From Argopecten irradians (taxonomy: Eukaryota > Mollusca > Bivalvia > Pectinida > Pectinidae), in contig NC_091134.1 in the NCBI RefSeq assembly GCF_041381155.1, positions 41,251,338 through 41,315,337 on the forward strand: 64,000 nucleotides of DNA. The letters run 5' to 3'. Numbering within the stretch: the stretch's first letter is position 1; each line of letters opens with the position of its first letter. Positions 10,668 through 43,500 of this stretch are shown piece by piece. A program made the position numbers and the translations under genes. The notes beneath the pieces are model-generated. The model saw nothing but the letters and a program-made list of their open reading frames with translations, was not told where the DNA came from and did not search any database.

Positions 10668-10862
10668 CCTTAGAGTCTTTTAGAATCATACACTACAATC
10701 TAACCATCACATTGCGGCCATATTTGTTTGAGGGTTGCTATGATTCTCAAGCATGCGCAAACGATGAAAATAAATATTTCCGGTTTATATTTTCGGAACT
10801 TTCTGTTCTCTTGCTACTTAAAGTATCCAACGTTCCAAGAGATTCCGAATAAAAATGTAAAG
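10668..10862. promoter_or_regulatory. Probable bidirectional promoter, SPAG17 (minus) and MECR (plus)
   Basis: Only 195 bp separate the two start codons, so both genes must share this promoter or use overlapping ones. Seen here: GTTGCTATG at 10734-10742, which resembles an RFX X-box half site and would suit a ciliary gene; GCATGCGC near 10752, an NRF-1-like core; and TTTCCGG near 10780, an ETS-like core. No TATA box is obvious. The motif matches are by eye and short. Confidence 0.65.
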
Positions 10863-11999
10863 ATGGCCGCCGCGGTGCAAAAATTTAACCGGCTTCGGTC
10901 CTGTATTCATCTTTTTCATAACAATGGATCGTTTAGAGCAGGGTTATATCAAGTAAGAGGTTTTGCCAACACCACCGAGTCTATTGCTATAAGTTATTCA
11001 GATTTTGGAGATCCAAGGAAAGTTTTAAGGAAAGAATTTTCCCCATTGCCGAAGAAATTAGCAAGTTCTCAAATTCTCGTTAAGATGATGATGGCTCCGA
11101 TTAATCCGTCCGATATCAATATGATAGAAGGTACATATCACATTAGACCAACATTGCCTTCTCTTGTCGGTAATGAGGGGGTTGGAGAAGTTATCGATGT
11201 AGGCAGTGGTGTTAAAAACTTGAAGAAGGGAGATTGGGTGTTACCAGCTCATGCTGCCTGGGGCACTTGGAGGACACATGCAGTATGCGAGGAAGCAACT
11301 GTGCAGCAAATTGACAACGATATTTCTGTTCTTGGTGCAGCTACAATAGCTGTCAATCCTTGCACAGCATATAGAATGCTTAAAGATTTTGTCCCTGTAA
11401 AACAGGGAGACATTGTAATTCAGAATGGTGCTAACAGTTCTGTAGGACAATCTGTTATTCAGTTGGCAAAAGAATGGGGAATTTCCACTATAAACATTAT
11501 CAGAAATAGACCCGATTGTGACCAGTTGGTTAGCTACCTTAAACATCTTGGAGCTACATATGTTATGACAGAAGAGTACGCATCATCTAGAGAGATGCGA
11601 GACTTTATTGCAAGTTTACCCAAACCACCAGTATTGGCATTTAATTGTGTAGGTGGTAAAAGTGCGACTGAACTGACACGCTTTTTAGGGCAGAATGGAA
11701 TTATGGTAACATACGGTGGAATGTCCAAGAAACCTGTTGTAGTTCCAACTGGTGCATTTATCTTCAAGGAAATACGTCTGGCAGGTTATTGGAACACTCA
11801 ATGGAATACACAAAACAGTCATTCTGTAGAAAAAGTGACAATGTATAAGGATTTGTGCAAATTAATGAGAACTGGTAAACTACTGACTCCAGAAAGTGAT
11901 CTCATTCCTTTTGAAAAGTTTGAAGATGCAGTTGCCCAAGCAATGGAAGGATTCCGTAAAGAGAAGAAAGTTCTAGTGATGGATGAAAAGTATTTGTGA
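10863..11999 (+). CDS. MECR: MECR, mitochondrial trans-2-enoyl-ACP/CoA reductase, single exon
   Basis: MECR performs the last, NADPH-dependent step of mitochondrial type II fatty acid synthesis (trans-2-enoyl-ACP to acyl-ACP), which feeds lipoic acid synthesis. The start is set at AAGATGGCCGCC (10863), a strong Kozak context, giving 378 aa, close to the vertebrate length. The frame is open further up with in-frame ATGs at 10740 and 10764, so a longer N-terminus is possible. The first 35 residues are Arg/Phe-rich and lack acidic residues, as expected for a mitochondrial presequence. The medium-chain reductase fold is complete: NPSDINMIEGTY with the catalytic Tyr at about residue 92, LVGNEGVGEV, GTWRTHAV, VNPCTAYRM, the cofactor loop NGANSSVGQSVIQLA, INIIRNRPD, NCVGGKS and MVTYGGMSKKPVV. 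There is no intron, although vertebrate MECR has many. It is head-to-head with SPAG17. Confidence 0.96.
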   Translation: MAAAVQKFNRLRSCIHLFHNNGSFRAGLYQVRGFANTTESIAISYSDFGDPRKVLRKEFSPLPKKLASSQILVKMMMAPINPSDINMIEGTYHIRPTLPSLVGNEGVGEVIDVGSGVKNLKKGDWVLPAHAAWGTWRTHAVCEEATVQQIDNDISVLGAATIAVNPCTAYRMLKDFVPVKQGDIVIQNGANSSVGQSVIQLAKEWGISTINIIRNRPDCDQLVSYLKHLGATYVMTEEYASSREMRDFIASLPKPPVLAFNCVGGKSATELTRFLGQNGIMVTYGGMSKKPVVVPTGAFIFKEIRLAGYWNTQWNTQNSHSVEKVTMYKDLCKLMRTGKLLTPESDLIPFEKFEDAVAQAMEGFRKEKKVLVMDEKYL

Positions 12000-18707: not shown

Positions 18708-21700
18708 TTATGCACTGTCCATAAGGTCTAGTAGATCGTCATCATGAGATGCGCTGTCTTGGACGTTAAGCTCGCCCATTATCTTATTCAACTCTGCACC
18801 TCTTTGTTTCTGTAATGAAACCCACAAGTAAAATAAATCAAATCTCAAGTGCTTTTATAAAGACATATTAACAATACAAGTGAGAAATCATCAATAAATT
18901 ATATGTAATCAAAGTTTCCTAGAATAGCAATAAGAGCTAGAATAATTTCAAATGTTTTATTGTGAAGAATCCTTGCATCTTTTTTTACTTTACAATTTTG
19001 TGACATAATCATTCAATCCAAATATACACAAAATGTGCTTATCGCTTTAAACTGAAATAAAGGCAGAAATCAATGATAAGACAAATTTACAAACCCTGAA
19101 GGCATTGATTTTAACTACACTAGACTGTATAAAGTGCAATAATAATTGATTGAATACATATATCTATAAAACCTTCAGGCATCACTTTCAACTATTGAAA
19201 ACAAACATAAACAGTGATAATATAATCAATGATAAAAACAATGAGGCATCAAGTGTAACTACTGAAGAGTAATATGAAGGGAGATAATCAATGGAGATGT
19301 TACACATACCTTGGAGGCATCAATTTTAACCACTTTCGATTCTACCATTTCTATGGGCTTCATGGACGCTACGGCAGCATCACTGAAACAGAAACACATT
19401 ATAATTAACAAACAAAATGTTAAAGATAAAACCTCTGTATTATCTAACATAAATTGGCATAAAATGTATGTTTTACAATGATATTTATTCTCAGCACATA
19501 TCTAAACTGCAGAGAATACATTTAATATTTTTAATTAAGTTTTTACAACTAACACATACAGGAATCTAAATGTGACTGTATTAATCAATTTTATTAAACA
19601 ATTTTTGAACAAATTATTTTTATCAAAACTGATTACATTGTAAAACAAAAGAAGTACATATATATATGCAAATGTTTGATAAACAATGGTCAGTATACAT
19701 GTGGTGACTTACTCTTCTTCCTTATCATTGTTGAACAGATTGAGTCGTATCTCCTGTTTAGAAGCAGATTTTCTGCCTCCAATGAGGGTACTTAATAAAT
19801 CTAGCTGGGCTTTGGCCAAAGGATCAGGGGTGTTGGATTCCTGATGAAACAAAATAATTGAATAATCAACCCTATTTCAATTGACTTTTACAACCAGTTA
19901 ACACACTACTATTCAAATGTATTTTGTAATATCCAGTGTCAGTGAAAATATGCTAGGGCAAAAAAAAACAAGAGGCCAAGAGGGCCTGTATCGCTCACCT
20001 GGTTTTTTGTTAGTAATTATCACAAGAATCTGACAATTAGAAAAATAAGCAAAATTGACTCCCAAAGTTTAATTTTGAATCACAACCATACAATGATGCT
20101 ATTGATACCATACAAATATGCTATCCAATACATAGGTTCAGAGACAAAGTAACTTATATGAAAATAGTAGCCTAATTGACCTTTTTGACCTCGCATCTAT
20201 TGCCGTTTAAGGCCCTGGGGGTCAGCCCTATCATTTGTACAATTTCAAATCCCAACCCTATAAGGATGCTACCATTGCATTATAAGTGCTCTTCCATTCT
20301 TAGTTGCAGAGAAGAAGTTGTTTGTTTGGAAATAGCTAAATTGAACCCTTTTGACCCCACCCTTCAGGCTCCTGGGGGGGTCAGCCCCATCATTTGCAAA
20401 ATTTTGAATCCAAACCCTTTAAGGATGTAACCATTGCATTATGAGCGCAATCCCATGTTAAGTTGCAGAGAAAAAGTCATTTATATGGAAATTGACCATT
20501 TTTGACCCCGCCCCTCAGGCCCCCTGGGGTCAGCCCTATCATTTGCTCAATTTGGAATCCCCAGTCTACAAGGATGCTACCATTGCAATATGGGTGCTAT
20601 ACCATGCTTAGTTGCAGAGAAGAAGTCGTTTATATGGAAATAGCCAAATTGGCCCCTTTTGACCCCGCCTCTCAGGCCCCCGGGGGGTCAGCCCCATTAT
20701 TTGTACAATTTTGAATCCCCACCCTATAAGTATGATATCATTGCATTATGGGTGCTATCCCATGCTTGGTTTCAGAGAAGAAGTCGTTTATATGGAAATA
20801 GCCAAATTGAGCCCTTTTGACCCCGCCCCTCAGCCCCCCGGGAGTCAGCCCCATCATTTGTACAATTTTGAATCCCCACCCTATATAACGATACTACAAT
20901 TGCATTATCTCATGCTTAGTTTCAGAGAAGAAGTCGTTTAAATGGAAATAGCCAAATTGACCCCATTTGACCCGCCCCTCAGGCCCCCGGAGGGTAAGCC
21001 CCATCATTTGTACAATTTTAAATCCCCACCCTATAAGGATGCTACCATTGCATTATGGGTGCTATCCCATGCTTGGTTTCAGAGAAGAAGTCGTTTATAT
21101 GGAAATAGCCAAATCGACCCCTTTTGGCCCCGCCCCTCAGGCCCCCATGGGGTCAGCCCCATCATTTGTACAATTTTCAGTTAGTAGCCCATAAGGAAGC
21201 TACCAGTCAAATTTTATTGAAATCCGACCAGCAGTTATGGAGAAGAAGTCGATTGTTGACGGACGCCGGACGCCGGACGACGGACGCTGGACACCGGACG
21301 CTGCGGTATCCCATAAGCTCACCTCGGTCCTTTGGACCAGGTGAGCTAAAAATGTCTGTTTAGGGTTACCCGACCGACCCTAATTTTTTACCCCTGACCC
21401 TAATTTTTTTCCACTTTTTTCCCTTGGCCTTGCAAACATAACCGGTGTTTTTCCTCATAGCTTAACCTTTGCTTGCTGTAATAACAATACAAACATTTAG
21501 ATTTTAATGAATCTGACAGAATGTAAATTTGTTATTTTACATTTTTCAATCATTAAACAGCAAAACATATCTTTATTAGTTACAATAATTTGTAAACTTT
21601 TTCAAAACTCTTGCTTTCAATTATGATATAATAATAATTGAATCATAAAATTTGCAAAATTTCCATATACCGGTATTATTACACAATTTTCATCAATATA

Positions 21701-24700
21701 CATTTTAGCTTTACACCATGAATGATTCTATGACTTACAATATCTGAGACTACATTGGCCTGTTGTTGTCTTGGTGCTCCAGAGCTCATCGTCTCCACAG
21801 TTCTTACTACACTGTACCTATAAACATTACAGGATAAGTTATGTCAAGAGTTATAATAATTTGTGCATATCCTGCTATTTTTTTCTTAAAATCAAATCAT
21901 ATTAAACTTAAACTACTACCAAATTATTGAATATAATGATAAAATAAATCCTAAATATGAACTTTTATTTTCCTTTATCAGGCCTTAACTAGATTTATTG
22001 TGTTTCAGCTCATATTTGTCGACTCATGCTGTTTTCTTCTAACACTACGTTATTCAGAGCTATATAGCTCATACTCTCATACTGATCATGAGCTACTAAT
22101 ATTTCAAATTCTGTGTCTTCTACTCTGATCTTATGTATTTTCATGTAAATTCTGAATCCTTGTGCTACATGTCTTTAATTGTAATAAACCTATAGAATTA
22201 TAACTCACATATTTGTTCCTAATTTGGTGACACGGTTCCCCTTGATATCAAAGGAGCCTTCTTGTAGAGCAGGAACAAAGTTGCCATTCACTGGGAAATT
22301 TGAAGTATTTCTTACAGCGCCATTTGGACCATACAGCCTGAAAATAGATAATTATCATGTAGAATAATATACAGGTAAAGGACTATTGAATGATATACAT
22401 GTATAGTCAGTCAAGAGTAACAACCATGCAAGGGGAGATAACCTTAGCAATATTATTGGATTGAAAATGATTCAGGATTACAATGATATATACCGTAGTC
22501 AGTCAAGGGTAATAACCCTGCAAAGGGAGATAACCTTAGCAATATTGTTGGATTGAAAATGATTCAGGATTACAATGATGTATTAATGTGATTATATTAT
22601 ATTGATAATAATTCATTTAGAAAATTTTATAAAAGAACTGTATGCTAAAAAGAAGATAATTTAGATTACAGCTCTTACAATATAGCTATGGGCCTGGTCA
22701 GTGAATGCAAGTGGATGTAACAGGTAGGTGAAAGTTCAAAATGTATATATCAATTACTGTAAATGTAAGTTGTTTGTTCATGGCCAATGCACAACTTTAT
22801 TGGGGAACCCATATGGATAATCTTATAAAGACAAAAACACATATTCAGTTTGCATTCTAAATGCTATCCAGATTATCTCAAATTTTAGTTAAAGAGATCA
22901 CATTTTGACTTGATATAAATATAGCTGAATTCTGGCCAACATACCTTTATCATAAATTATAACAAGTAATATCTCTTGGACAGAAATGTAAATGTAACCT
23001 CAAAATAGGAAATACATCTCACCTCAATGCATCCATATAGCTGGATGGGATGTAACAGGATGTGACTGGATGCAAGGGACATTGTTTAACATCAAATTTG
23101 CCCCCTCCCCCAATTTAATGACAGAGCATTAAATTAGCTGTGTCATTAAGAGGTGTTCTATATATTATATGTTTCAAATTTCATCTGCTGAGAAGCTAGA
23201 TTACAAGGGACAGGGCTCGAGCTAAGTATATTGACAATGGTAACAGATATTTGTGACTTTTGATGTTTGATCATATCAACCTATTGATTACAAAACAATA
23301 GATAACTGCAGTTAAGTTTTTTTTCCACAATAAGCTTTTGATAAACAAATGATGAAAAGATGTTTTCATTCATAAATTGATCTGTTAAACCAGGTAAACT
23401 TTCATCATACTTCCCAGCTTCAGGATTATCAGATAAATCAATACACCTAACAAAACACACCTGTGTACACATACCTATAACACTACAGTTAATTAAAGCT
23501 CAGGTATAATTGGATGTCTTTTGATGTGGTGTACCTGATGTTCTATTGTTATGCCAAAAACTTTGATCAATAATATTCCCTGATGTTTTTCATCATGATC
23601 AAGTCAGATCAGCTTCCTTGATCAGTAGACTACAAAATTTCTGATGTTGGTCTTATTGGGTTGCAAAATATTTAATAAAATGGGCAGAGAGCTTTTTATT
23701 GATTAGCATGCGCTTATACCTTATCAAATACGGTATCAATTCCAAAATCTGATTTAATTTTTGCATTTGATTCCAGATATAAATATTAGTCATAACTGTC
23801 GTCACATACTTTTTTATCTATAATACCAGTTGCATCATTGAAGCTGACCATGTACATGTACATATACTAACTCTATACACACAGATGTACCATTTTTACT
23901 TATTTACATAACAAAGGCAATGGCATTATTTGAATTTGTTGTGATAAACAGAACGTTCTGTGAAATCGACACCTCGGCCCTATTTTATAGACAGTATGAG
24001 ATGATATGAGCCATTTATGCCTTTGTGCTGGCATGGTAATGAGATGGTTCTTCTGTCATCATTCATTTAATCAGGCAAGGTAAACAGAGATCAATACTGC
24101 TGTATATATAGGTCTGTGTAGTGGCTATAGTTACCAGTACCGGGTTCTAAAAAAGCTTCTTATCACACACAGCCCATTAACACGACCTATATCAAAGGAT
24201 CCCTCAATAATACTCAGACTGCCCAGCTTCTTACTGATACAGACAGCTAAATTAATATGTGATTTTCAGCCTAAGACATCTAGTTGATAAGAGATCTCTG
24301 ATCAGCCACTGTATGGTAATATATACCAATTACACTGGTAAGGTAATGATGCCTTGATAATTTATACATTGTAATTGACACATCAAGTTCATTATTTCTG
24401 TATGGAAGAATGAAAATATAAATAAAAATCTAGAAAATATGAAAGTGCTACGAAAAGGATCATCAAAATTTGTATAGTACATTAAATTTATTGTATTGGT
24501 GGGAAAACTGAATAAAATGTAAATCATATATAAAATCATTATTTCTGCAGTCATAATGAATATTAGATTAGAATAAATAAATGAATAAGAAACCTTTTGA
24601 GTAATTGATTACAATAACAATGTATTGAAATACAAGCAAATTGATATATAGGCTCAATTTTATCTGATTTTGGTACAGAATTGCTCTAATTTTAGTGTTT

Positions 24701-27700
24701 CAACCTAGCATTTTTTACCTCTTACATTTAGGCCAGCCACTAAATCAAAGTGCACTTGCATAAGTATATTATCATGCATGATTCAGGTATACTACAAGTT
24801 TCCTCGAGCAGTTTATTTCTTTTTAACATATTTCAAAAGTTACCCCTTGGACAAGACTTTACACTTTAATTTTGGAGTTAAGTATCAGATGAAGAACAAA
24901 AAGAAACAGAGCTAGCAGTAAACTCTACATAACTAACAAAAACATGTTTAACAAAACACATACTGGTATAGATTTAGATGTATTTTTTGCAATCAATTCA
25001 ACATCTTATACATAGAGCAGTTCTGACACGTACCAACACTCCTTGCTCTGAATGTCATCTCAAAACACCTATTTATTCTACATGTATTCCCCAAAATATT
25101 GTACCACTCACCTTATAGCCCCTGGTGATTCTGTCCCCCAGGGTAGGGTACCACTCACCTTATAGCCCCTGGTGATTCTGTCCCCCAGGGTAGGGTACCA
25201 CTCACCTTATAACCCCCGGTGATTCTGTCCCCCAGGGTAGGGTACCACTCACCTTATAACCCCCGGTGATTCTGTCCCCCAAGGTAGGGTACCACTCACC
25301 TTAAAACCCCCGGTGATTCTGTCCCCCAGGGGAGGGTACCACTCACCTTATAACCCCCGGTGATTCTGTCCCCCAGGGTAGAGTACCACTCACCTTATAA
25401 CCCCCGAAGAATCTGTCCCCCAGGGTAGGGTACCACTCACCTTATAACCCCCGGTGATTCTGTCCCCCAGGGTAGGGTACCACTCACCTTACAACTCCCG
25501 GTGATTCTGTCCCCCAGGGTAGGGTACCACTCACCTTATAACCCCCGGTGATTCTGTCCCCCAGGGTAGGGTACCACTCACCTTATAACCCCCGGTGATT
25601 CTGTCCCCCAGGGTAGGGTACCACTCACCTTATAACCCCCCGAAGAATCTGTCCCCCAGGGTAGGGTACCACTCACCTTATAACCACTGGTGATTCTGTC
25701 CCCCGGCCCCAGGGTAGAGTATCACTCACCTTATAAACCCCGGTGACTCTGTCCCCCAGGGTAGGGTACCACTCACCTTATAACCCTGGTGATTCTGTCC
25801 CCCAGGATAGGGTACCACTCACCTTATAACCCCCGGTGATTCTGTCCCCCAGGGTAGGGTATCACTCAACTTATATCCCCCGGTGATTCTGTCCCCCAGG
25901 GTAGGGAATCACTCACCTTATAACCCCCGGTGATTCTGTCCCCCAGGGTAGGGTACCACTCACCTTATAACCCCCGGAGATTCTGTCCCCCAGGGTAGGG
26001 TATCACTCACCTTATAACCCCCGGTGATTCTGTCCCCCAGGGTAGGGTATCACTCACCTTATAACCCCCGGAGATTCTGTCCCCTATGGTTGTGTATCAC
26101 TCACCTTATAACCCCCGGTGATTCTGTCCCCCAGGGTAGGGTACCACTTGTTGGTAACACAAATCTACCATTGCTGTTCTGTACTTTGTCTTTCAGGAAT
26201 ATAGATACCTATTTTGAAATAAAATAAGACATATGCTTCATTAGTGGTTTAGGCAAAGTTAAAAATATTTAAGATGCCAGGGTATTGAACTTCCTTTATC
26301 TATAGTTGTAGTTTAATCTGATAATCATAATGTATAGCCTATTACAGGTTCAGAACATGTTTTTATTTTAATTACTCAACAGTATGTTATAATTTATAAC
26401 CTGTTATCAACACTTTTATATAATTTTGGTTTAGTTTCAATGAAAAACTATTAGATCTACTGTAAAAGTAACAACAATTATCACAAATTAAATTTAGCAA
26501 ATGACAATACAGTAATTATGTAAGCTTTGTTTGAAATTGTATAATTGAATTACTACTACAAATGTAGTAGTACTTTCCATCAACCATAAATACTTTAATA
26601 GTCTAAGAATTAATCAATATAACTTACTCTTATGTGCATGTCTTGAAAGAAGTTTAATAATGTCTGTCGTATAAGCTGGAATTCTCCTTGTGATAGAGAT
26701 CCAAACGTCTGCAATGTAAAGAATAAATATCACTCGTTAGTCCAGGATTATTTTGGAATAGGGTATTGAGAATAGTTTAAACATTAAAGGCATTACACAT
26801 GATACTAAACCCTATCTCTATGAAATGGTTTTAGATGTATATATAAGTTATGGGAAACACATCACGTAAAGTGGTACTACATCTCCGCCTATTCGAATAC
26901 TCCGGTTATTTGAATATTTTCTTCTGGAAAATGACTTATTCAAATAAGTGGAATCCTCTGTATATCCTAATTTCTGTCACTTTCTATTTACAGAATCAAT
27001 GACCCATTATTGAATGTCTCAGTCAATCATGAAGTCTTATGCTTACAAAAATGTCTGGTGACAAGCAGTTGAAAATATGGTTTCCAGCTGGATCATGGTC
27101 GAATTGTATTGAAACCAAAGTAACAGCAACCTACTTTTTCATTTCACATAACCTTGAAACAATTGTCACAATGATATTTTATATGGCCTATTGAAAGTCT
27201 CTGCAACTGTCCTTAGTTTATACTTTAAGATCAAGTGGAGTAGGTGTTTTTGTTTTGTTTTATGTGTTATTAACTTTCAGGGTCTTTATAAGGATGTGCC
27301 GAGCTTTAAAAGTGAAGTACTCTGGTACTGCCCCATATAGGTACCATCTAACTTAGAACCCAGATATAAGAACAATATTATCAACCACTTAGCTACTGTG
27401 CATAGTCTCTTTTTTCCAAATAACTTCCCCAAAGATACCTAATGTCCTAATACTCTGTGTACTGTATACATGTGAAATTAAGATCAGTGCTAAAATAAAA
27501 TTACCACTAAAAATGTATACGTTTGCAGTATGTCAATGCTAGTTCCTTGATGATTATTCACATATAACCGACACTTAACCCTGGTCATTTTGCAACTATC
27601 AATAACACTAAATCTAAGCTCTAATGTACATGTAATGGATATAAGGTCCTTCGTCTAGGCAGCTATTATATCAAAAGGATTTAATTTTTAATCAGATTAC

Positions 27701-30700
27701 ACTGAAATGTGCTTTCACATCTCAAACCTACATACGCTGGGGAATTTGTAAATTGTAATGGAACCACATAAATATGATTATATATAGATCAACAATTTTA
27801 GTAGCATGAGAGTTGACCAGCAGAACAGTATTCTCTTCTACAAAGGTGGTACATGAGTGAGGATGGGGTTAGATGCAAGGAAAACTTGAGTTCCCAGATA
27901 AAAACCATTGACCAGTGGGGAAGATGGGGTGACTGCCTCACATAGGCACAGATAGAATGCTTGACAGGTTAGCCATTGGGGCACAGTATCCCCTATGTGA
28001 AGGACTATAACGGTAATAAGATGTCATTATATTAATGTCAATGTCAGAGGTGGCACCTTTTTGCTATATACATGTATTATCTGTTTCTATTGTTAATACA
28101 GTGACGATACTCAATAACTTGTAAGATGGTTGGATAACAAACATTTGTGTGTGAAATTTAATAGAAATGGAATGGGACGGGGGGAAACTGTGAGGAACTG
28201 TTGATGTGGTGTTCTGATAAGATTTCAAGAATAAGATTTGTGTACAGATTTTTAAGACTTCAAATTACCATAGCACCATATTATAAGCATCACTTTATTC
28301 TTCTATCAAGGTATTTGAAATTGTATAGGTAAATATCCCTCCTATTACTCAACTAAAATTATCCAGTATTATTACTTAAAACAATAATGGCTGTGTTGAA
28401 TAAAATTAGCTACAGATAAAATTTTGATCATTTTCTGAATTATGAATAAAGTAAAACATCACTGGGAATTTGTAATTTATTGTTAGCTCATACACATAAC
28501 ATTAATTGTACTTACTTTAATATGAAACAACAATTTTCTCCAATACATAATATATCATATACTTCATATATAGATATTTGCTAATTTGCCACATTGAAAA
28601 TCAAATTTGTACTGTCCTCGGCACTAACTTCAGGTTAATATAATATTTAACAATGTTACCTCAATAAGAAGTCGGTAGACATGGTCGACCTGTTGTTGTA
28701 CATGTGGAGCACCATCTAGCAGGCTCTTTATGGCATCTATATGGTTCAGGGTGGTAAGGATTATATCTTTAGGGCGCAAACTCAGCGACACTTGGAATTT
28801 GAATGCCATTGTCATCAAATCATACAGCTGAAAAAGAAATATCAACTATAATATTTATAGGGATTGGACTTGGTTTCTTATTCATAAATGACCAGATTAG
28901 CTCAATTAATTACAAGAACAGTCTGAGTATCATCTTGGTCAACTTATACCCCTTTCCCCTAAAAATCCTTCCCTTCATAAATCATGCTTTTCATATTTTA
29001 CATGCAATTGTTCAAATGAGCCTGCATCTGCCTGCAACTAGTACAGCAATGGTTGTCAATTTTTTTAAAGAAATTGAAACATTTTGCGTGTCAATAATTG
29101 AAGCTACCATTATTACACGAAACATGTTACTTTATAAGATTTTGATCTCGGACATGTAATGTCAGACTAAAGTACAGAATTTATAAAATTTGCGCAAGTG
29201 ATGATGACTAAACTTTGTATTTCATTTATCTATTGTATCAGATCGCAGTTGTCATGCAGGCACCTACTTTAGCCCTATTGTTGGTCACTGTTAGTAAATT
29301 TAAGGTACTAAGATTCTTAAAAAGTGACACTTGTAAAAAAAATTGGCCTGTGATGTCATCATGATTTAATACTACCATCAAAGAATCCAAATATAACACA
29401 GCATTTTCAGTCCAGTGTTTTTCCTCTCTATATATTTGGGGCCGAAATTCGGCCCCATTCCCAATTATATTTCTTGTTATTTTTTCCCAAATCTATGTCT
29501 AAATTTCCCAAATCAGTGAGTTGAAGTGTATTTTGTGTGACGAAACAAAAAAAATCTGGAAATTCCAAGTCTGAATATTGTATTTTAGTAGACATTCTTA
29601 CAATGATTCTTAGAGAAGCATATAATTCATTAATTGTTTATTTCTACATTTTCCAAAATTTCCATAAACACTTAAAATTTTTCCCAATTTCCTACTTTTA
29701 TCGCACAAAAATTCCCAATTTTTACCAGGTGGCAATTTCCCAAAATACCCAGGAAAAACACTGCAGTCTGCTGATAAAATATATGCTGTGGTGTTTTCTA
29801 TGATGTTTAATTATAAGTGATGTGTATTATCAACAAATCACTGTTTATATTGGTGTATCAAGCACCAATCGTTCTGATAATATGAGTATGAGATATAAAG
29901 TTCAACAACCAGACCTAATCCCGAGAGTAATCCCATGTGACAGCTATCATATGCATGATTACGGTCGAGTATATATATACTCAGCTATCACTGATTAACA
30001 TGTCTCCCTATATAGCTCCTATTGATTATTACATACATCAGCAGATACTTCAGCCAGTATTACAAGATATACACACACATAACATGACAACCACTCTACA
30101 GTTTGTATTTGTATCAGTGACAAATGTTTGCTGTTACATGCACAATCGTCTCAATCTTATACTTTTCATTTGCCGGATGAGTATTTGGCAATCCCTTCAA
30201 ATATTTAAAGATCAACTTGCTAATAATGATAACAGGCATTTCATCTTCTTTATTTAGAAAAGGTAGGTAGGTAGAAAACTAATAACTACCAGAAAAGATT
30301 CTGCTCTCCTCTACGTTGACCCTTTAGTTGCAGTAAATGAAATGTACTGGCTCAGGCAGACATTTTTATTCTTGCAACCAAAAGAAACTTTTCCATAAAC
30401 CTTTAAGTGATCAAAACAACCCTCAATACCAATTTTCGATCCCTTTACGATCCACTAAAGCAATTTTGGATATCTAGACATCTTCAAAACTATTATAACC
30501 ATGCATATGATATACATTGTCCAAAAAAATAACCTTTATACCAATCTTAAAATTTAAAGGGGTCATTATCAGTGACCATCTTGAATTTTTCAGGGAAATT
30601 CAGACCCTATTGCAACATCTACATACATGCACTATCATCTATAACTACTTCCATATGCAATTTCAAAACAGTTAATATTCAATTGCTTTTCAAGAAAATT

Positions 30701-33700
30701 TCTGGAAAACAATTGAGAACAAACAGACGGACAGACAGGCGGACATAGTGATTACTATATGGGGCTTAAATGCCTACTTCTCTGAAGCAAGGATCTAAAT
30801 AATTGAAGGATTGGCAAATTCTTTATGTGAATGACTTAGAGCACCATGTATATAATATAGCATTGTATCTCATATTACATGAACTTGTGAATCACGATGT
30901 AATACTGTATGCATCTCAAATGACAGAATTAAAAGCCATTCCATAGGGTATTTACTGTGGCAGATTAATGTGCTATGAGCACAAAAAGAGTTTAAAAGAC
31001 ATGATGGACATTTTTAGAGTAAACTTATTTCTTTCAAAACTTTTAGTTTGCTTCCCTAATCAGGACCCTATTTGTTATAATTTTTAAGTGCTCTAGGATT
31101 TAATCATGGCAAATACGGTATCTCATTTAAATCATAATCCTTGACAGGTTAGCTAAAGTTTCTTTTCTTTCACAGAGGAACATGTGACTAAATTATAAAA
31201 TACTGGTATATGTTATTAAAACTGTCCCAGAAAATACCATTTACACACGCAGGTATCTGGTAATCATCAATATTGCATTTGCTGCTATAATTCCCGTTAG
31301 ATCTGTATAATTAGATTTAATCATTTACAAGTCACAAAGGCTTGTCAAACCAATTAAGAATTGAAATTGAAGAGAGAAAAAAGGCAATAAAATAAGAAAA
31401 GCATGACCGCATAATCATTTTACTTTAATCAATAATTTTGAATCAATCAATATATATACATAGTCTAATGGTTGTGTGTCTAAGTGTCACACTCCTCGTT
31501 GTGGGATTTTTAAGTACATTGTAGAAGGAAGTGAAATAACAATAAAAACTGGTTTTACTTTCAAAGTAAAAAAGAATATGAATTGTAGATCTAGTAACGT
31601 GATATATATAATGATTTATGGTAAATGCTCCAAATTTTATATCGGTCAAACGGATACAGAGTTAGGTACAAGAATGACAGTGCACAGACAGCAAATACGA
31701 ACTGATCATTTACGATTTTTACCTGTAAGTAAACATATATATGAATGTTCTAAAGGAGAGTTCAAAATGTCCCCTTTATATCAGATAAATGATGCGGATA
31801 TTGTCAAACACGAGGCTAAGGAATCTGAATTAATCAGACTTCTCAAACCTAGTTTGAACAGTGCTCATCCATTCAACCTGTTTCTGAACTATTTTTGTTG
31901 TATTTAACATTAAAGTTGGATTTTGACTTCATGGTACTTTTTTTCGAAAGTGTATTATGATATGTGTAGATGTAGCTCAATCGGTTAATGGCACTGTCTT
32001 TTGCTTAGCACATGGCGTGTTTGAATCCTGCCGAGCGCAGGAAATATTTTTATATTTTCATGTTTTGTCTTTTAATTAATCCGACATTGTATTCTTTGTA
32101 TTCTTCCTCATTGATTGCTTATATCTTGTCTCTTAGCAAATGACGTCATGAACTATGACGTCATAATATGTCTTCAATAAACAGTCTTAAGAACTCCCTT
32201 GAATGGGGCAAAAACGCTCACTAGTCAGTCGTTATTGTTTTTATTTCTTATAGATTTCGTCCGTTAGGGTTTTTCTTCAAATTTAATATATACATATATA
32301 ATATGAAAAATACCTTCAATTTGAAGATAAATAATTAAGCATTGACGTCACTATTTGATTTTTGATTTTTAAACATTTGGGTTTTGAAAACTGTATGAAT
32401 CTGCTTAGCTAGTGAAGTCTATAAGATGTAAATGCCTGTGTGACTCCTGCTTCCATTATATCAATGTGTCATGTAATTATATGACAGAATGGGATAAGGA
32501 GTAAGGACACAATAAATATACTGATATATTTAACAGGAGGGTGCCATCATTACACCCCATCCCAATCCCTTAACCCCCACACCCCATTTCATTTCATAAT
32601 CTTCTTCATATCATTTCAAAATAATGTATACAGGTAATTACATAATTCTGCCTACCTTGTCCATGCTAGCAGCATTTAGCCTCATTATGGATGCATGAGC
32701 TAGTCTGTCAAACACTGTCCTCATAGCCTTCTTGGAATACAGGGGCTGAGGCTTAAACAATTCCTCCATAAATCGTTTGTGATACATTGTTGCAATAATG
32801 TCATGTAGAACTGAAAGAAAGAAGACAGAAAGTAGACTAAAAGTTCTTCAAACTGATACAGCATGTCACATTAAAACATATGATGACATGTACATTTTGT
32901 ATATTTTCTAATTGAAACCTTGATTTTTTTTCCAAAGTCAATGCAGTCAAATTAAACCTGTCTGAGTGACCACCTCTCTGCTGAATAAAACCTCTCACTT
33001 TCTCAGCATCCCAAATGGTCAATTTCAACACAATATGCCCTAAAGACCACTTGGCTACAAAGACCATTTTTCTTTGTCCCTTGAGCGGTCTTCAGCTGTT
33101 TGACTGTATCTTGAAAACTTATCCAAATATTTTGAATGAACCAATTGTAAGTCAGTTAAGGCTTTAGTAATTAAATAGCTTGTATTTGCTTCAGAGAGAT
33201 ACATAATTGTTTAGCTAGTATGCTCGAAATAAATTATCACATTCATTATGAATTTGTTTGCATAATTTTTAATTTAAAAAAAAAAATTATTTTGTAACTC
33301 ATTTCCCCAAAGCCACAGGCCCTATTCCCAATACAGTGCAAAAAAGGCCCTGTGATTAGGTATGTATTTGAAACACAACCACATGTCTATTGGTAATGTA
33401 TTACTGACAGTAAATGTAGCTGTTAATAGGACGTAAAACTAAACAAACCAAACCAAACTGTTAAAATTCTCTTCAGGTGATTATGACCATGGATGACAAA
33501 TGACTGACATGCATATAATTACAATACATGTACATGTGATGTATGCCCACAATGATTGTTCAAGTACAATATGAATTGTTTATAGCTACATTTAGGTTGT
33601 TGTATATTTATGTGATATAAATAGTATCTTGAAATTTGTGTTGATATAAATGGGAGATTTAGGAAACTCCTCCCAAAGTTTTAATTTTTGCTTGCCAATT

Positions 33701-34409
33701 AGGCTCAGAAAAATAAAATTAAAAAAAAATAAAAATTCCCAAAGACTTATTTCATAAAATCTCATATGAAATGAGATCCTTAGTAATTATATAATGTATA
33801 AATTATGAAATAATAATACGTCATGTAAAACAGATCAACAATCAAAGTGTCCCTGACACTACATGTATATAATCCAAGTGATTTTACATTCCATCACTTT
33901 ATCTGCAGCTTGTTATGATTTCAATGTAAATTATGGGTTCATATCATTCTGATGAATAACCAATATGCAGCGAGAATACTGACTGTAGGCCTACTGAACA
34001 AACTTATGTAGAATCAGAAACGTACTGTAGGCCTACTAGGATAACTTGTTATGTGTTTCTGGTAGAATACAAATGCATTGTACATTCTTGTCAGGCGGAC
34101 AAATATAAGTGACAAGTTCACGATTTTTCTTAATTGTATCAGTTCAATAGGGTTAGGCTAAACAATACTCAAAAACTTGTTATACATTGGTAGATACAAT
34201 GAAAATACTAGAAAAATGTCAGGACGTACATGTACTGATGGCCTTATGGAATTCAAATATCCTACAGTACAGCAGTTCTAGGCCAAAAACAACTTACCTT
34301 TCTTCGCTTTTTCATCTGCTATATTCTGTGCTCGCAATCGTTGATCTAATATATAAATCATTTCCCCGCCAAGGTTTATAAATAGTAAAGGTAGCGTTTT
34401 AAATGACAT
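18708..34409 (-). CDS. OSCP1: OSCP1 (organic solute carrier partner 1), complete, 10 exons
   Basis: OSCP1 (NOR1) is a conserved cytosolic protein linked to cilia and male germ cells; its biochemical role is not settled. Exons in transcript order: 34298-34409, 32656-32810, 28660-28827, 26628-26708, 26105-26208, 22209-22337, 21739-21817, 19713-19840, 19310-19382, 18708-18809. All splice sites are GT-AG, all phases match and the product is 376 aa, close to the vertebrate length. Clear family matches: MSFKTLPLLFINLGGEMIYI, LDQRLRAQNI, RFMEELFKPQ, FDRLAHASIMRLNAASMDK, LYDLMTMAFKFQV, LSQGEFQLIRQTLLNFFQDM, VSIFLKDKVQN and the acidic end DDDLLDLMDSA. Exon 5 ends SGTLPWGTESPGVIR and is the source of the 47-bp array in intron 5 (25100-26149). 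If the true exon 5 donor is skipped, the next codon in frame is TGA. Introns carry a Helitron-like element, two MITEs and a Penelope relic. It is head-to-head with CYP39A1. Confidence 0.96.
19967..21348 (+). mobile_element. Non-autonomous Helitron/Helentron-like element, family 1, copy A
   Basis: The 5' end is AACAAGAGGCCAAGAGGGCC, then GCTCACCTGG. About seven tandem copies of a roughly 158-bp core follow (GTACAATTTTGAATCCCC, TTTGACCCCGCCCCTCAGGC). Next is a GGACGCCGGACG tract, then a 3' palindrome (GCTCACCTCGGTCC ... GGACCAGGTGAGC) followed directly by CTAA. A stem just before CTRR is a Helitron 3' hallmark, and tandem cores are known in Helentron-associated elements. No open transposase. 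It lies in OSCP1 intron 7. Copy B, inverted, is at 49327. Confidence 0.75.
22403..22590. repeat. Two-copy tandem duplication, about 92-bp unit
   Basis: AGTCAGTCAAG ... GGGAGATAACCTTAGCAATA ... GATTCAGGATTACAATGATR occurs twice with few differences, in OSCP1 intron 5. Confidence 0.8.
25100..26149 (-). repeat. Exon-derived 47-bp minisatellite, about 22 copies, each with a splice donor
   Basis: The 47-bp unit, read on the minus (gene) strand, runs from GTGAGTGGTACCCTACCC to GGGGGTTATAAG and repeats head to tail. The right-most copy (26105-26149) is the 3' end of OSCP1 exon 5 itself, encoding SGTLPWGTESPGVIR, which matches the vertebrate protein. The exon is therefore the source and intron 5 holds the copies. 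Every unit carries the TATAAG|GTGAGT donor or a near variant (one unit has GTTGAG). Units differ by single bases and a few small indels, for example near 25700 and 26090, so amplification seems recent with some homogenisation. 47 is not a multiple of 3. Confidence 0.93.
29413..29763. mobile_element. 351-bp MITE, CAGTGTTTTTCC termini
   Basis: Perfect 12-bp inverted ends, CAGTGTTTTTCC and GGAAAAACACTG, are flanked on both sides by CAGTC (29408-29412 and 29764-29768). An internal palindrome GGGGCCGAAATTCGGCCCC sits near the left end. No coding capacity. It lies in OSCP1 intron 2. The superfamily is uncertain: the CAGTG ends look hAT-like but the target duplication is only 5 bp. Confidence 0.8.
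30340..30790. repeat. Possible element end with an ACAGACGGACAGACAGGCGG tract
   Basis: In OSCP1 intron 2. The ACAGACGGACAGACAGGCGG tract at about 30725 resembles the GGAC-rich tract seen near the 3' ends of the Helitron-like families in this window, and the text before it has a similar style (TTTCAAAACAGTTAATATTC). No ends could be fixed. Confidence 0.3.
31464..31907 (+). mobile_element. Penelope-like element relic: GIY-YIG endonuclease domain
   Basis: An open frame without ATG begins after a stop and encodes about 147 residues. It has CHTPRCG (Cys motif of the region before the nuclease), NCRSSNVIYIMIYGKC then KFYIGQT (GIY-YIG signature), R/H motif TRMTVHRQQI, and ESELIRLLKPSLNSAHPFN with the late Glu and Asn of the fold. 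This is the C-terminal part of a Penelope-like retroelement. The reverse transcriptase is absent, so the copy is 5' truncated, as is common for elements copied from the 3' end. It sits in OSCP1 intron 2 against the gene's direction. The downstream 31908-32290 is probably its 3' region. Confidence 0.85.
31966..32035 (+). other. tRNA-like segment with Pol III A and B boxes
   Basis: TAGCTCAATCGGTTAATGG (A-box-like, from 31973) and GTTTGAATCC (B-box-like, 32019-32028) are spaced about as in a tRNA. The D-stem and anticodon arm do not fold properly, so this is not a functional tRNA gene. It lies about 60 bp after the Penelope frame stops. It may be a SINE head or part of the element's 3' region. 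Confidence 0.5.
32944..33106. mobile_element. MITE of the CAGTCAAACCTG family, diverged copy
   Basis: Ends are CAGTCAA ... TTGACTG. The interior has the family words GACCACCTCT and AAAGACCACTTGGCT, shared with the better copy at 52643. In OSCP1 intron 1. Confidence 0.6.
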
Positions 34410-34576: not shown

Positions 34577-37500
34577 ATGGTTGCTCAAAGTCTGCTTTCA
34601 GTTTCACCGCCTAACATGCTACTTACCGGTATAATTGCGATTTTGACGTATAGTCTTTACAGGTTATTTAAACCGCGATATAAAAACAGCTTTCCACCTT
34701 TGAGACAAGGCTGGGTGCCATGGATAGGATGTGCTTTTGAGTTTGGAGTAGAACCACTTGCATTTATTGATAAAATGAGGAAAAGGGTGAGATAACTCTC
34801 TGTGTAAATATAAGTTGTTATATTGTTATAATTAAATATTCAATTTGTTTCTCAAGGGAAAAACAGTTTTAGTTTTAAGAACAAATAACTTTACGTGTAT
34901 ATAAAACTTCAAAAATCTTCTTTAATTCTGGAAATGGTAGAATCAAATACTCTTTATAGCTGGAAAGGTCTTATGGTGTTTCATGAAAATTGTGAATTAT
35001 ATTACCCTGGGGTCTCGCGTTTCCCCTTGGGGAGGGGGTCAAGTTTACTATAGTTTATATTGAAAAAACACATTTATGAGCATTATTTGCTCAATTTTCA
35101 TAGGAAATAAGTCAAACTTGATTAGAATTATTAACCTGAGATATAGTATTTTAACATCCATTGTAGAAGAACAGGGAAAATACACATTCCTGTAACACTA
35201 TGTACAAGTCACACTGACCCGCTCCTTTTACACCATATCAGTCCTTGCTAGTGGTGTTCCGATTAATCAAGTTCATGGTGCATCGTTGGTTTAGGGTGTT
35301 TGACCAATTAATCGATTAAGAAATCTGTAATCGAGTTTTGTCGGAATTGCCAGATATCATCATAAACGAAAGTGTATAATTAGCCGGTCAGTAAAACATG
35401 CAAGAAATGACGTAGAAAACTTGTCGCAATCAATCGCTTGTGTGTGTTGTTGCTCATATCATTTCAAATGCCAATTTGCGTCTAAACAAATTGAAAAGCG
35501 CATAAGCACTATGTAGTAATGTAAACATTCAGAGGAGTATGAAAACATAAGCGACCTTTGAACATGGCAACACTTGAGCCTGTAGAAGAAAGTTTGTACA
35601 ATTTTCCTTGAAAACGTACGTGGTCAAATATAATCGATTTTAATCGATCATCGATTGGTTACACAAAACTGATGATCGATCCTAAAATTTCAACTGATTT
35701 CCAACGCGAGCCCAAGCAGGGTCAAGATGACTTAAAATTTCAAAAATTTTCAAAGTTCACAGGTTTGATGCAAGCAAATACTCTTCATAGATTAAAAAGT
35801 TGAATTTATTAAATCACTGACCGACTTCAAGGTCCAGTATATTAGTGTTTATATGTCTTTTTTTATTCTATATCCGAACGTCATGGGCCTCTTGTTTTCT
35901 AATATATTTCTCACATTATTGATTTTTCTCATTACTAGTTCAGTATCTTAATCCCTGGATTCATTTATTTACATGCATAATAATAATGATGATAACACCA
36001 ATTTGTTGTAGATGGGAGATGTTTATACCCTGTATGTGGCTGGAGAACGCCTTACCTTTCTTACGGATGCTGATGATTTTCACCACTTTTTTCAGTCAGC
36101 AAATGTAGATTTTCAAAAAGCAGTGCAAGATCCAGTGCAGAACATTGGTAAATATTTCAATGAAACTTGGTGGCAGTAAACCTTATATAAAGTCAATGTG
36201 TGTAATCTATATACATTGTGTATACACAGTATTTGAACAAAATACCTTCTTTTTTAGAGTTATGCCCCTATGTTACAAAACAAGGGGGTGGGGTGAGCGG
36301 GTTATATAAGTTAGCCTCCTGGACAACAGGCCTCAGGATCATGACACAGACTTAAGTCCAATTCTGTCTTAATTTTAGACTTGGCCAATCAAAGATGACA
36401 TTACAAAACATTAAATCATTTATGATTGGCTAAAGTCAAAACTTAAGTCTAAGATTGTTTCATGATCCTGGACTCAGTTCTAGTTTTAAAGGGATTTTCA
36501 TGCATATCAAATTAAGTAAATAAAAGTTTTTTCTTCACATTTATTACTGTATTTTCACCATATGCATTTACATCTTATATGACTTTAACCTCTGTACACA
36601 AAATACATATCCATTTGTAATACTACTGGTAATATCTGAATTATGAATTGAATGGCTTTCAATAATTTGTGCCATATTTTACACACTGACTGACCATAAT
36701 AATACAGCTTTTATTTTTAAACAAGGAAAGAGTGAGCAACTCATAAGGAAGGGGAGATAACAGCAGGAAAGAAGGGGAAATAACAAATGATTGGAGATGT
36801 CAGAATTTAAGAAGGGAGATATCAGAAAGATAGAATAAGGGGAGATAAGAAGTAAATGGAGATATCAGAAAGAAAGGATATAACATTAACTGAAGTCAAT
36901 CATTTTTTCAGCTTCTGTCAGTGAGGAGTCCTTTTTCCAATTCCACACAAAGATCCATGATATGGTGAAGGGTCGTCTGGCATCCTCCAGACTTATGAAT
37001 TTCCATGACGATCTTTGTCAAGAGTTCAACAAGGAAATTGATGCAGTTTTATCAGTAAAAGGTAAAGTACTGGATTTGTTTTATCAGAAACTACTTTTAA
37101 ATGTACCTTTTAAACATGATATTTCTGCATCAATACAAAGTTTATAAAGGGACAATTCAGTCTAATCAAAATTTGCATATATATTGGAAACTAACCAGTT
37201 GTACTATGATATGCCAGAAAAGCCCACTGTAGTGAAATGTATGTGAAATGTTCAAACTCACTTGCTGTGCGCCATTACACATTGTGGTCAGATGTTTTGT
37301 ATGCCGAACCCTGGCTCTTGCCAGTGTAGTAAAGAATTTTTTGTCTAGAGCTACTCATGTCACTCTTAAAGTAGTGTGTTTACATTATTAGGTGTATGTT
37401 CTTGTCTGAAATGAACATAATTTCACCAACTCCTCAGTGGTTATGTATTGCATTGGATTAATGTTTGTGACTTTGGTTCGAGTATATGTACAGCATACAT

Positions 37501-40500
37501 GTTAAACCTGCTTAAGCGTATTGATCAACAATTTGGAATTTCAACGGTATCAATCAAAATACTTAACAACGTTATGGAATTTGTCAATATTTCTTGTTAT
37601 ATGTTTCATAAGGAATGTAGAACAATACATTTATGTCATATTTTGCTTCGTGGTTATTTAAAGAGACAATTCACTCAGGTTAATTCTTTTACATAACCAA
37701 GAAGCAAACTATGGCATAAATGTATTGTTCTACATTTCTTATGAAACATATAACACAAAATATTGACAAATTCCACGTCAATGTTTAGTATTTTAATTGA
37801 TACCGTTGTAATTACAAATCGTTGATCAATACGATTAAACAGGTACAAAATGTACGCTTTACTCATACCCAAGCCAAAGTCACGAACGTTAAACAAATGA
37901 ACTACATAACCACTAAGGAGGTGATGAAATGATTTTGAGGCAAGATAATTCACCTAATAAGGTAAACACACAACTGTCAGAGCGATTTGAGCAGTTCTAG
38001 ACAAAAGTTGCATTACTCTACGAGCAAGGGAAAGGGTTCCGCATACAAGATGTTCGACCACAATGTGTAATGGCAGATAGCGAGCGAGTTTGAACATTTC
38101 ACCCCCATGGGCTTTTCTGGCATATCACAGTAAAACCGACTGATCTAATTTCCATTAGAACAGGGGTTTTTCCGATATTTGTACAAATTTTAATGTTCTC
38201 TTAGACTGAATTGTCCCTTTAACAGAATTAGCCTAATTGAATTGTTCCTTTAAACATTATATCACGGTTTGATATGACCAATTTTCCAGATTATTATGAT
38301 TTAATACAATTTTTCAAAGCATGAAAATTACCAATTTTAACTGGTTTTGAAAATCAAACATTCGAAACCGGAAGTGCATTTCATTTATTAGTTTATACCG
38401 GTAAGTTAAAATATCTGAAAATTACTGAACAAAGTTATTGTCCTGTATTTAATTATTTAAGAGTATATCTAAAAGCCCCTAAGCACATACAGAGGTACAT
38501 CTACCTATCGTAAAAAGGGTGGAGTTTTCAATCTCTCTAATATATGTTTCTAGTTTTATCAATACAAAAATTGTCACCTCAATTTTGTTACTTAAATCAA
38601 GTTTTAGCTATTTTAAAATCACTTGTTGGTATTTAACCAAATTTGACTAGTATCATCCTTATATATACTGTAATAGGGTTAATTGGGAATCAAAAGAACA
38701 AATGTTTCGACAGACACCCCAACCTCCCCAACCCCCACACCCAGGAGCCTGAAGGGTGGGACCTCTGGAAGCCCAGGCTACTCATATTGGGCCTGTAGCA
38801 TGCTAAGATGATGGGCTCCCATTTTTTTTCAAATGAGTGATCTAGACTTTCATTCAAGGTCAAAGGTCAAAAAGGCTTTTAAACGACTATTTGTCAATAT
38901 GTGCCTGTAGCATGCTGGGATGAAGGGCAAAATTTTTTGACAACCATTAAAGGGTGGGTGTGAAATAGTCTTAAATGTTTAAATGACTTTTTTCAGTAAC
39001 TTTTAATTATTATAAGAGGCCAAGAAACCTGATATTGCGCCTGTAGCATGCTGAGATGAAGGGCTATTTAATGTGTTCAATTGTACTATATATATATAGA
39101 CTTTCATTTAAGGTCATATGGATCAAATAGGCTACAACATTCAAAAGACTTCTTGTCTAACTAAGAGGTCTAGAGACCTGATATTGCACCTGTAGCATGA
39201 TGGAAAAATTAAGGCCTACCAAGTTTGTTTAAATGATAGCCTTGACCTTCTTTTAAGGTCATAGATCAAATAGGCTAAAAAATTTAAACAACATCTGGTT
39301 AATAACTATGAGACCTTGATACAAGGTACCTTATTTCAGACCTACAGCATGCTGGGATGAAGGGCTATAAAATGTGTTCAGTTGAATGACCTTGACATTC
39401 ATTTAAGGCCACAGGGTTCAAAAAATCTAAAATCTTTAAAACAATTTCTTGTCAATAACTAAGAGGTCTAGAAATCTGAGATTGGGCCTGTAGCATGCTG
39501 AGATAGTAAGTTTCACTTTATTTTATAGAAAGGAACTCAAAATACCAAATTCAATATTCAAATCCATTTTATTTTCGAGGCAGCAGAGTAATTTAACTTT
39601 TTAATTTTAAAATTAGCTCCCCTTATTATTTTTTTTTGTGAGGAAATTTGATGATAGTACAGCATAAATGGAAATTGGCATTACTCGGTGACCACATCTA
39701 TTAGATATACACAGTAACCGGATATTTTATGTTGTTCATCATATCACGTTCTAGACACTATTTACATTTTTGTAATTTATAAATCCACTATACACTGCTA
39801 CCTTATTAGCTTACAGCTATATACATCAAGTTGTACCCTTAAAGTTCTATCACAGATACATTACACCCTGCTATACTGTCCAATGGTGTGTTATTGTCAG
39901 AGCTTCAAACACTATAGTTACTGTACTGCAGTTGTTGTATTTTGTCTCCCATAGTTGATACCCATAGGAAATCCTCACTGTCAATACCTACAGCCCATAT
40001 GTAGTCTGTCTGTGTATGTAAAACTTTGATGAACTGGCCTCCTCCATTTAGAAGCAAAATTCTGGAGTTATCAATGTCTGTTATAACTAAATTTCCCACA
40101 CTGTCAAACACCACATCACCGGGACTAAAGGGATATGGTGCACCTCTTGTATGTCCATGACTAGTAGGGATATCCCCATCAAATACAAACAGTAAGTTGA
40201 AGTCAGAATCAGTGACAACAACACATTCACTACTTTCACTTTCATATAGTCTTCTGTGGTTGGTCATAGCAATATTGTGAGTTATTGGACATTCCGAGAT
40301 CTCCGAAGGTGAACACATTAATGGTTTGCTTGTACCCTGATCATTTGATGTTTGCAACATTTGACCCTGTGTGGTAAATTTGTAGACTTGCTTGGCTGTC
40401 CCCACAATGACATAGTTACTAGCTGTAGCACATATACACTTCGGTTGCTCCTCGGTTCTAAATCGGAGTTCGAGTTGGCCTGATACCAACTCCATGATGT

Positions 40501-43500
40501 TGCATCCTTCGTCACAGACCCAAAGTCTGTGTGTTGTAGGTGACAGACTGATATTATTGATGTCACTAATGCTTTTGGCCTCTTGTAAGACACTTCCTGT
40601 ACTATCCAGGAGATTTAGTGTGTTACTACCACAGTTACCCGTCCACAGACAATGACCAATGGTGGGGCGTAGAGAGTCAATGCTGTTGCGAGATTCCCAT
40701 TCCCGTACCACAATTGTCTCCGGTAGAAGATTTCTCCCTGTCACCACTTTTCTCTTTTTAGCTTCTGACAACTGTTTAAATGATGAAGGTCGTTTCTGAG
40801 CTTCTAATGATGTTATCGTAGCAGGTGAATTCTGATCACTTTTTAGTGTCGCCATCATTTAGGAAAATTGCTATTGCAAGGCACTTTATAATCTCGGTAA
40901 TCCTCACTTAGACAAGAATGTATCTCAGAACATCTTTTGAAATCTTGTGAAATAGTGATAACTATTACATTCCAAAGGTGATCTAAGGTCCAATTTAGTC
41001 ACAATTTACACTTACATCCTTTAAACCATGATCTGTATCATATGGATCCAAATCAAATTAGATTGTTCAAACTGATTGGTTTATGTATTACTGTTTATCA
41101 GAGTACAATATATACTGTATATCAAAGTACAATGTATACTGTATATCAAAGTACAATGTATACTGTATATCAAAGTACAATGTATACTGTATATCAAAGT
41201 ACTATGTATTACTGTTTATCAGAGTACAATATATACTGTATATCAAAGTACAATGTATACTGTATATCAAAGTACAATGTATACTGTATATCAAAGTACA
41301 ATGTATACTGTATATCAAAGTACAATGTATACTGTATATCAAAGTACAATGTATACTGTATATCAAAGTACAATGTATACTGTATAGTACAATGTATGTT
41401 TAAATGCACCTGTAGAAATAATGTGTGTAAGCCATATAAAACTTTTCTTGATATTTCCACTGTTTGTGCAATCTTGTCAACAACAATTGAGATTGTGTAT
41501 GACGCTATATATTGAACTTGTGCGGAACCCCTCGGGAAGTTACTACTGTGTGTTCAGTGACAATAGGTGATTGTAGGATGTAGAGTAGGATACAGATCAA
41601 TGTAGGTCTTGTTTACAACTTAAGTGATTAGATTACAATACCTAGCTAGTTTACCTTTGGTGTATTGTCTGATAATGTATTATATGTTCTATTGGACCAA
41701 AAGGAGTCAATTTGCACACATTGCATTAATTAACTTCCTAAGTGAAAGCTGTCATCTTATAATTGCTCAATTTTCTTCTGTAGCCAAGAAAGCTATCATA
41801 GTATTATCACTCATTTGTCAACTGTAGTATCCCTAAGACTTAGAGATTGATATGGTTGGGCTGATTTGCTTTCAATTATCTTTTGAATTATGTTACAGTT
41901 GAATTCACAATACACAATTCTAGATAAATAAAATGTTTGTACCTGTACACAAATTAGGAGTTTTTTTTTCATGTATTTACTAAATTAACCAGGTGAGCAA
42001 TACAAGCTTTCAGAGCCTCTTCTTTTCTCTTTTATTAGTTTTTTATTCTCATTTAAGGTGAATCGGCCTTACTAGAGCTTAAAATCACATCAGAGATGCT
42101 GGAGCTTAGAATGAATCACTATATTTGTTTGTCTATCCACAATTGGTTTCTGCAGATTTCCTCAAACATTAGTTGGCCTAGGGCTGCTGTTTTGATCAAA
42201 TTAAATTGCTGATTATATGTAAATATGCATATTAAAGTTTGTTACCGCTATTTCTCAAAAAGTGATGAAGGGATCTTTCTCAAATTTTATGTACAGGTTT
42301 CCCTAGGTTTGTTAAAGTTTGTTACCGCTATTCTCAAAAAGTACTGCAGGGAAAATATTTGTATACAGATATTCATGAGGATATTGAATACTGTTGTGAT
42401 AGTTCGAAGTGTTCTCAAAAGACCCAGCACGCTGTATCAATTTACTGCAGCTAAGGGTAAACTTGGCAACTGGCTGGCCATTTCTGAAAGTTTTTAGTCT
42501 AGCTTATGTCAATAACTTTTATTTTATTTTTAAAGTTATATTTCATGCGAATTTCACTGTAACAATTTGTCACTTAAACATTTGATATATGAACATGGAC
42601 ATGTAACTTGATGATTTAGCTCCCCAAAAGAAGATGTCGGCCTATAAGAGGCAAGAAATATAGGGATCATATATTGCTGGTTTTGAATAAAGCGCCTTCT
42701 ATCACCGCCATGTTCAGTACCTGCTGGTTTTGTCGGAATTCCGAATCGTATCATGTGACTTACGTCAATATGACCTACGCGTGGTGAGCAAGGTAACTAG
42801 CTTAAGGGTACATGTGTTTGATGACATTTTCCTTTTGGCTAATTTGAGCAAATCATGTTGGTATATGTCCATAGAGTGAGTATTTGAGACATCTAATGCA
42901 CACATCTCTGTAAAATATTGTGTGTATTAAATATTGTAATGTGCGAGCATTATTTTCTATGTAGATCCAGTCTGCTGAGGTCAACCACATTTTTGTTTAT
43001 GAAAAATTTTGGAAATTTTCTCTTGGATTCACTACTCTAGTGTAACTTCGAGATTGTCGCGATAATGTTTGGAAGAGTTCGGAATGATTCGGCATCTTAT
43101 ATTAAATTACGAGCCTATTTTTCAGGTGTACACGTTATAAAGATTTTTTTACTTTTATAATCAGATGGTGGGCTATTCAAATCGCCTTTCGTCCGTGGTC
43201 CGTCGTCCGTCCGTCCGTCCGTCCTTCCGTCCGTCCGTCCTTCCGTCCGTCCGTCCGTCCGTCCGTTAACAATTCTTGTTACCGCTATTTCTCAGAAAGT
43301 AGAGAAGGGATCTTTCTCAAATTTCACATGCAGGTTCCCCTAGGGCCCTAGTTGTGCATATTGCATTTTGGGATCAATCGGTCAACAAGATGGCCGACTG
43401 GCGGCCATCTTGGATTTTGATAGTTAAAGTTTGTTACCGCTATTTCTCAGAAATAACTAAAGGGATCTTTCTCAAATTTTACATGTAGGTTCCCCTAGGG

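Follow-up and report, generated by a model that had tools for sequence, protein, structure and literature searches.

A minisatellite assembled from an exon end and its splice donor in the OSCP1 gene of Argopecten irradians

The OSCP1 gene and the array at the end of exon 5

The window analysed here is a stretch of 64,000 nucleotides of Argopecten irradians DNA, and all positions refer to it. On its minus strand lies a complete OSCP1 gene whose fifth coding exon ends inside a tandem array. The parts of the gene that matter here are the following.

18708-34409, minus strand: OSCP1 gene, 10 coding exons, 376 amino acids, 9 of 9 introns GT-AG, single open frame
26105-26208, minus strand: OSCP1 coding exon 5, 104 nt, residues 173-206 and positions 1 and 2 of the Arg207 codon
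22338-26104, minus strand: OSCP1 intron 5, 3767 nt
22209-22337, minus strand: OSCP1 exon 6, 129 nt, in-frame if skipped

Joined from 34409 to 18708 on the minus strand, the ten exons yield a coding sequence of 1131 nt including the stop codon, and the Pfam family PF10188 (Oscp1) matches residues 17-189 of the product (E 3.6e-72). An earlier note on this DNA had placed exon 5 at 26208-26105 and the exon 6 acceptor at 22337, and both positions were confirmed. The junction between the two exons reads GTT ATA AG + G CTG TAT, encoding R-L-Y, with the exon copy of the repeated stretch lying within an intact frame. That stretch encodes residues 193-207, SGTLPWGTESPGVIR, just beyond the end of the Pfam model, a segment that we take to be conserved in vertebrates. 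An 81-residue piece that starts in exon 5 and reaches the beginning of exon 7 hit no family in a Pfam search, the OSCP1 protein had no match in the PDB up to E 1, and no relative of it was found in viral contigs or in bacterial and archaeal genomes. Two further open frames lie in the window: a single frame of 431 amino acids on the plus strand (10704-11999), which is alcohol dehydrogenase-like (Pfam ADH_N and ADH_zinc_N), and one of 317 amino acids on the minus strand (39905-40858), which has no Pfam match at E 0.001 and by eye has the look of an NHL-type beta-propeller.

The array occupies 25101-26148, with a 47-bp unit, 22.2 copies and 92% matches (TRF). Its parts are given below, with a slash in the text marking the exon-intron boundary or its equivalent in the copies.

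26102-26148, minus strand: array copy 0, made up of the final 44 nt of exon 5 and the GTG that opens intron 5, and carrying the true donor AAG/GTGAGT
25109-26101, minus strand: 47-bp unit, 21 full copies in the intron, 20 of which keep AAGGTGAGT
26055-26101, minus strand: intronic copy 1, the most substituted copy (6 substitutions), adjoining the true donor
25867-25913, minus strand: intronic copy 5, the sole copy with a broken donor, reading AAGTTGAGT
25101-25108, minus strand: 8-nt stub AGTGGTAC at the right array edge; the exon copy starts with the identical 8 nt

The array (26148-25101) is continuous with the end of exon 5, 44 of the 47 nt of the unit are exonic, and the unit carries the 5' splice site. 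The proposal that the unit joins the final 44 nt of exon 5 to the beginning of the intron was thus borne out, both by TRF and when the array was split by unit. The copies are close to one another: copy 0 is the same as the array consensus and as intronic copies 4, 11, 12, 14 and 19 (5 of 21), and the 21 intronic copies together hold 46 differing letters, six of which are one insertion in copy 9. The left edge is sharp at 26148 (aaca, then AGTGG), and at the right edge the stub gives way to unique sequence. About 21 extra near-perfect donors had been claimed; their near-identity stands, and their number is 20 rather than 21, copy 5 having lost its donor. The claim that copying ran from the exon into the array finds support to the extent that the exon copy lies within the intact 376-residue frame; the Pfam model stops at 189, before residues 193-207.

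The repeated donor is confined to the array. The window contains the 9-mer AAGGTGAGT 21 times, always within the array (1 true donor and 20 decoys), as against a mean of 0.56 and a maximum of 3 in 100 shuffles, and a search with a 28-nt part of the unit at up to 3 mismatches gave 20 matches, again all within the array, indel-bearing copies escaping this search. When the 23 TRF rows of the window are merged, 17 arrays result, and the array at exon 5 is the only one of them to overlap an exon of OSCP1. Units of about 155-172 bp make up the long arrays at 43276-45826, 49493-50652, 51140-52325 and 20213-21177, which are possibly parts of dispersed repeats; judged by eye, 20213-21177 and 49493-50652 have one common unit on opposite strands. 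At the far end of intron 5, a 92-bp direct duplication (22404-22583, 93% matches by TRF) stops 66 bp before exon 6, with TTTGCAG in one copy and the AG gone from the other. Taken together with the 47-bp array, it means that intron 5 bears tandem duplications near both ends. The motif AAGGGAGATAAC has 7 matches at no more than 1 mismatch, compared with 0.27 expected, for instance at 22523-22534, 22431-22442 and 36812-36823; motifs of this type are frequent in mollusc genomes.

Strength and consequences of the decoy donors

Can the true donor be told from its copies? Pairing with U1 was computed with an 11-nt U1 5' end. The true donor pairs at -11.5 kcal/mol, the best value among the nine donors of the gene, and the 20 intact decoys pair at -11.8 kcal/mol (16 of 20, slightly stronger than the true donor) or -11.5 kcal/mol (4 of 20). 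These 21 sites outrank the other GT sites of intron 5, which has 235 in all, the next best reaching -9.7 kcal/mol. Since the true donor and the decoys have a common 9-mer and nearly equal U1 pairing, donor sequence gives the true site no advantage, and the cues left for donor choice are position and exon length. Nor does local folding account for the first donor winning, because the true donor is no more accessible than the decoys: its opening energy is 2.72, 3.39 and 2.90 kcal/mol under three window settings, each time among the higher of 22 values. The idea that the changes in copy 1 leave it more open was accordingly rejected; replacing copy 1 by the consensus lowers the opening energy of the true donor. 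A special RNA structure was also rejected for a 188-nt piece of the array, which has a z of +0.83 and which 155 of 200 shuffles equal or better in folding.

The outcome of decoy use can be read directly from the exon 5 frame. Reading past the exon gives SPGVIR and then a stop, a product of 207 residues, in agreement with the earlier note's claim that a TGA follows straight after the true junction. As this TGA stands directly after Arg207, every decoy, wherever placed, would give the same protein. Exon 5, which is 104 nt long with the true donor, would lengthen from decoy to decoy, measuring 151 nt with the first, 198 nt with the second and finally 1097 nt.

The substitutions that separate the units speak to whether the donors are maintained. 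The donor 9-mer holds 1 of 25 substitution types (one-sided binomial P 0.034), a weak fit to upkeep by selection, but the unit contains two quiet blocks, of which the donor is one. Nine-column windows with at most one substitution type number 6 of 47: three of them, the donor window included, begin in the donor block at columns 41-43, and three begin at columns 16-18. The quietest window, with zero types, lies in the other block (columns 16-26) and not in the donor block. As evidence of selective maintenance of the donor, the pattern is at most suggestive. Nor did the array copies show a sign of coding constraint: of the 24 substitution types in the exon frame, 9 are synonymous, where 6.7 are expected.

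Related arrays in human genes

The earlier note supposed that an arrangement of this kind was undescribed, and this did not hold: human CBS and ABCA7 carry variable number tandem repeats (VNTRs) of the same kind, so that the OSCP1 array is a real and uncommon example of a known arrangement. In OSCP1 itself, no such array was found among the matches listed in the literature searched, which was mostly open-access; several of these matches were to similarly named rice genes. The CBS repeat, c.1444_1467+7(16_21), is described as a 31-bp VNTR of 16-21 copies at the exon 13/intron 13 boundary, the name indicating a unit made up of 24 nt of exon and 7 nt of intron (PMC2630376). More units go with lower CBS activity, according to a review (PMC5188458) that cites Lievers 2001 for this point. 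Like the OSCP1 array, the CBS VNTR has tandem copies of an exonic and intronic unit that includes the donor; it differs in gene and taxon and in its shorter unit, and for CBS both polymorphism and an effect on activity are reported.

The ABCA7 case bears most directly on splicing. A 25-bp VNTR in intron 18, with about 12-427 units, includes the exon 18 donor, and splicing at a cryptic donor one unit downstream leads to a frameshift and a stop (PMC5954066). Retention of one unit is apparently about 2%, in a sentence of that source that lists two isoforms in order, and is given as not length dependent (PMC5954066). Skipping of exon 19, in contrast, rises with VNTR length, and expression is 33% lower for the largest than for the smallest combined VNTR length (PMC5954066). 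As far as that account goes, the two arrays are alike in directly flanking an exon, in including its donor and in having a decoy one unit downstream that leads to a stop; unlike the OSCP1 array, the ABCA7 VNTR starts at the donor GT, is described as intronic, has about 12-427 copies and has had its length effects measured. By analogy, exon 6 would be the OSCP1 counterpart of ABCA7 exon 19, and its skipping is the event to look out for.

Other cases are more distant. CBS 844ins68 is described as a duplication over the intron 7/exon 8 junction that produces two competing splice sites (PMC2630376). Unlike the OSCP1 array it is a single 68-bp copy, with no array, and it sits at the other end of the intron, since a title cited in that source speaks of 3' splice site selection, though the passage itself says donors. 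In a fish myostatin gene, one intron carries a 150-bp repeat at its 5' end; the passage describing this repeat does not state whether exon or donor is included (PMC3045353).

Alternative readings and a proposed origin

Could the array be an error of assembly, with an actual copy number that differs or an array that is smaller? Arrays of near-identical units are difficult to assemble, but the copies carry private variants, such as the substitutions peculiar to copy 1 and the 6-nt insertion in copy 9, which is unlike a simple looped artefact, and we regard this reading as very unlikely. An extremely improbable reading is recursive splicing, in which each AAG/GTGAGT would serve as an acceptor and then as a new donor, the array being removed stepwise with the protein unaffected. 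Every intact unit does contain AG/GTGAGT, but a pyrimidine tract is missing. With an acceptor matrix built from the nine acceptors of the gene only, authentic sites being scored leave-one-out, those nine score from -2.8 (exon 7) to 10.4, whereas the best AAG/GTGA site of the array scores -4.2, about at the median of the 204 AGs of intron 5 (-4.25); the best of all 73 AGs in the array reaches -2.1, above the exon 7 acceptor. By this nine-site matrix the array lacks the ratchet combination of a pyrimidine tract and an AG joined to a donor. The same matrix bears on a model in which tandem duplication of an exonic segment bearing AGGT can create an intron (PMC3443670). OSCP1 shares with that model the tandem duplication of an AGGT-bearing segment; it differs in that the segment spans an existing donor and no new intron is evident, and a duplication supplying donor and acceptor together was rejected, the donors being strong and the AAG/GTGA sites of the array poor acceptors.

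The array could also have a function. It is conceivable, though we consider it unlikely, that the decoys act as a regulated brake, competing with the true donor so that the share of transcripts stopped at the TGA sets OSCP1 output, tuned by copy number. In favour of this are the strength of the 20 intact decoys, together with the true donor, over the remaining GT sites of the intron, the immediate stop after Arg207, the alteration of the donor 9-mer in just 1 of 21 intronic copies, and the lower CBS activity and ABCA7 expression reported with longer arrays. Against it stand the second block of the unit, as change-free as the donor block, and the apparent rate of about 2% for ABCA7 unit retention, given as independent of length; a more specific version, in which about 20 intact decoys would divert transcripts to one truncated product and array length would tune output between individuals, seems to us distinctly unlikely on the sequence at hand. 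U1 binding may protect pre-mRNA from early polyadenylation, and the array, with identical U1-complementary sites at high density, might be a platform that binds many U1 and so shields the pre-mRNA, or else prevents or slows the use of the true donor. This we hold to be highly improbable. Decoys can inhibit a real donor, as in the Drosophila P element (PMC7776569) and, as its authors propose, in a VWF mutant (PMC8706089), but in both the decoys lie upstream, in the exon. The 20 exact OSCP1 decoys lie downstream, in the intron, and a pseudo-donor silencer of the P-element type was rejected for this reason. Neither the copy-number brake nor the dense U1 loading suggested in the earlier note is shown.

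We favour the following model, to which we give a probability of about three in four: the array is a minisatellite, seeded by a tandem duplication over the exon-intron junction and tolerated since, with the first donor usually winning and some leakage to the decoys. A tandem duplication, by slippage or unequal exchange, would have taken in the donor and the 44 nt of exon 5 before it. Had AGTG or AGTGGTAC been present in an ancestor both in the exon and right after the GTG of the donor, a duplication of 47 bp would have been favoured; if the shared 8 nt seeded it, the array-free intron would begin GTGAGTGGTAC. Expansion of the duplicate to about 22 units would then have produced the minisatellite. 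The results give the picture of an ordinary minisatellite, and the near-identity of its copies suggests that it is probably young, although local homogenisation might have the same effect. Contraction or expansion between copies in register would rebuild the exon end and the donor each time, and array length could therefore shift without breaking the gene. The spliceosome would mostly pick the first donor, favoured by the shortness of the resulting exon (104 nt, compared with 151-1097 nt for the decoys) and by being made first, and a small fraction of transcripts would take a decoy, stop after Arg207 and probably be degraded. The array would be tolerated rather than maintained, possibly at a length-dependent cost, as in CBS and ABCA7.

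What is the relevance of such an array? Its 21 donors in series, with an identical 9-mer and nearly identical 40 nt upstream, amount to a natural experiment on how a 5' splice site is chosen. As donor sequence cannot separate the 21, counts of their junctions would gauge the effect of position, that is, of exon length and order of transcription, almost alone. Beyond the two human cases, the OSCP1 array shows a route by which a donor-spanning duplication may grow.
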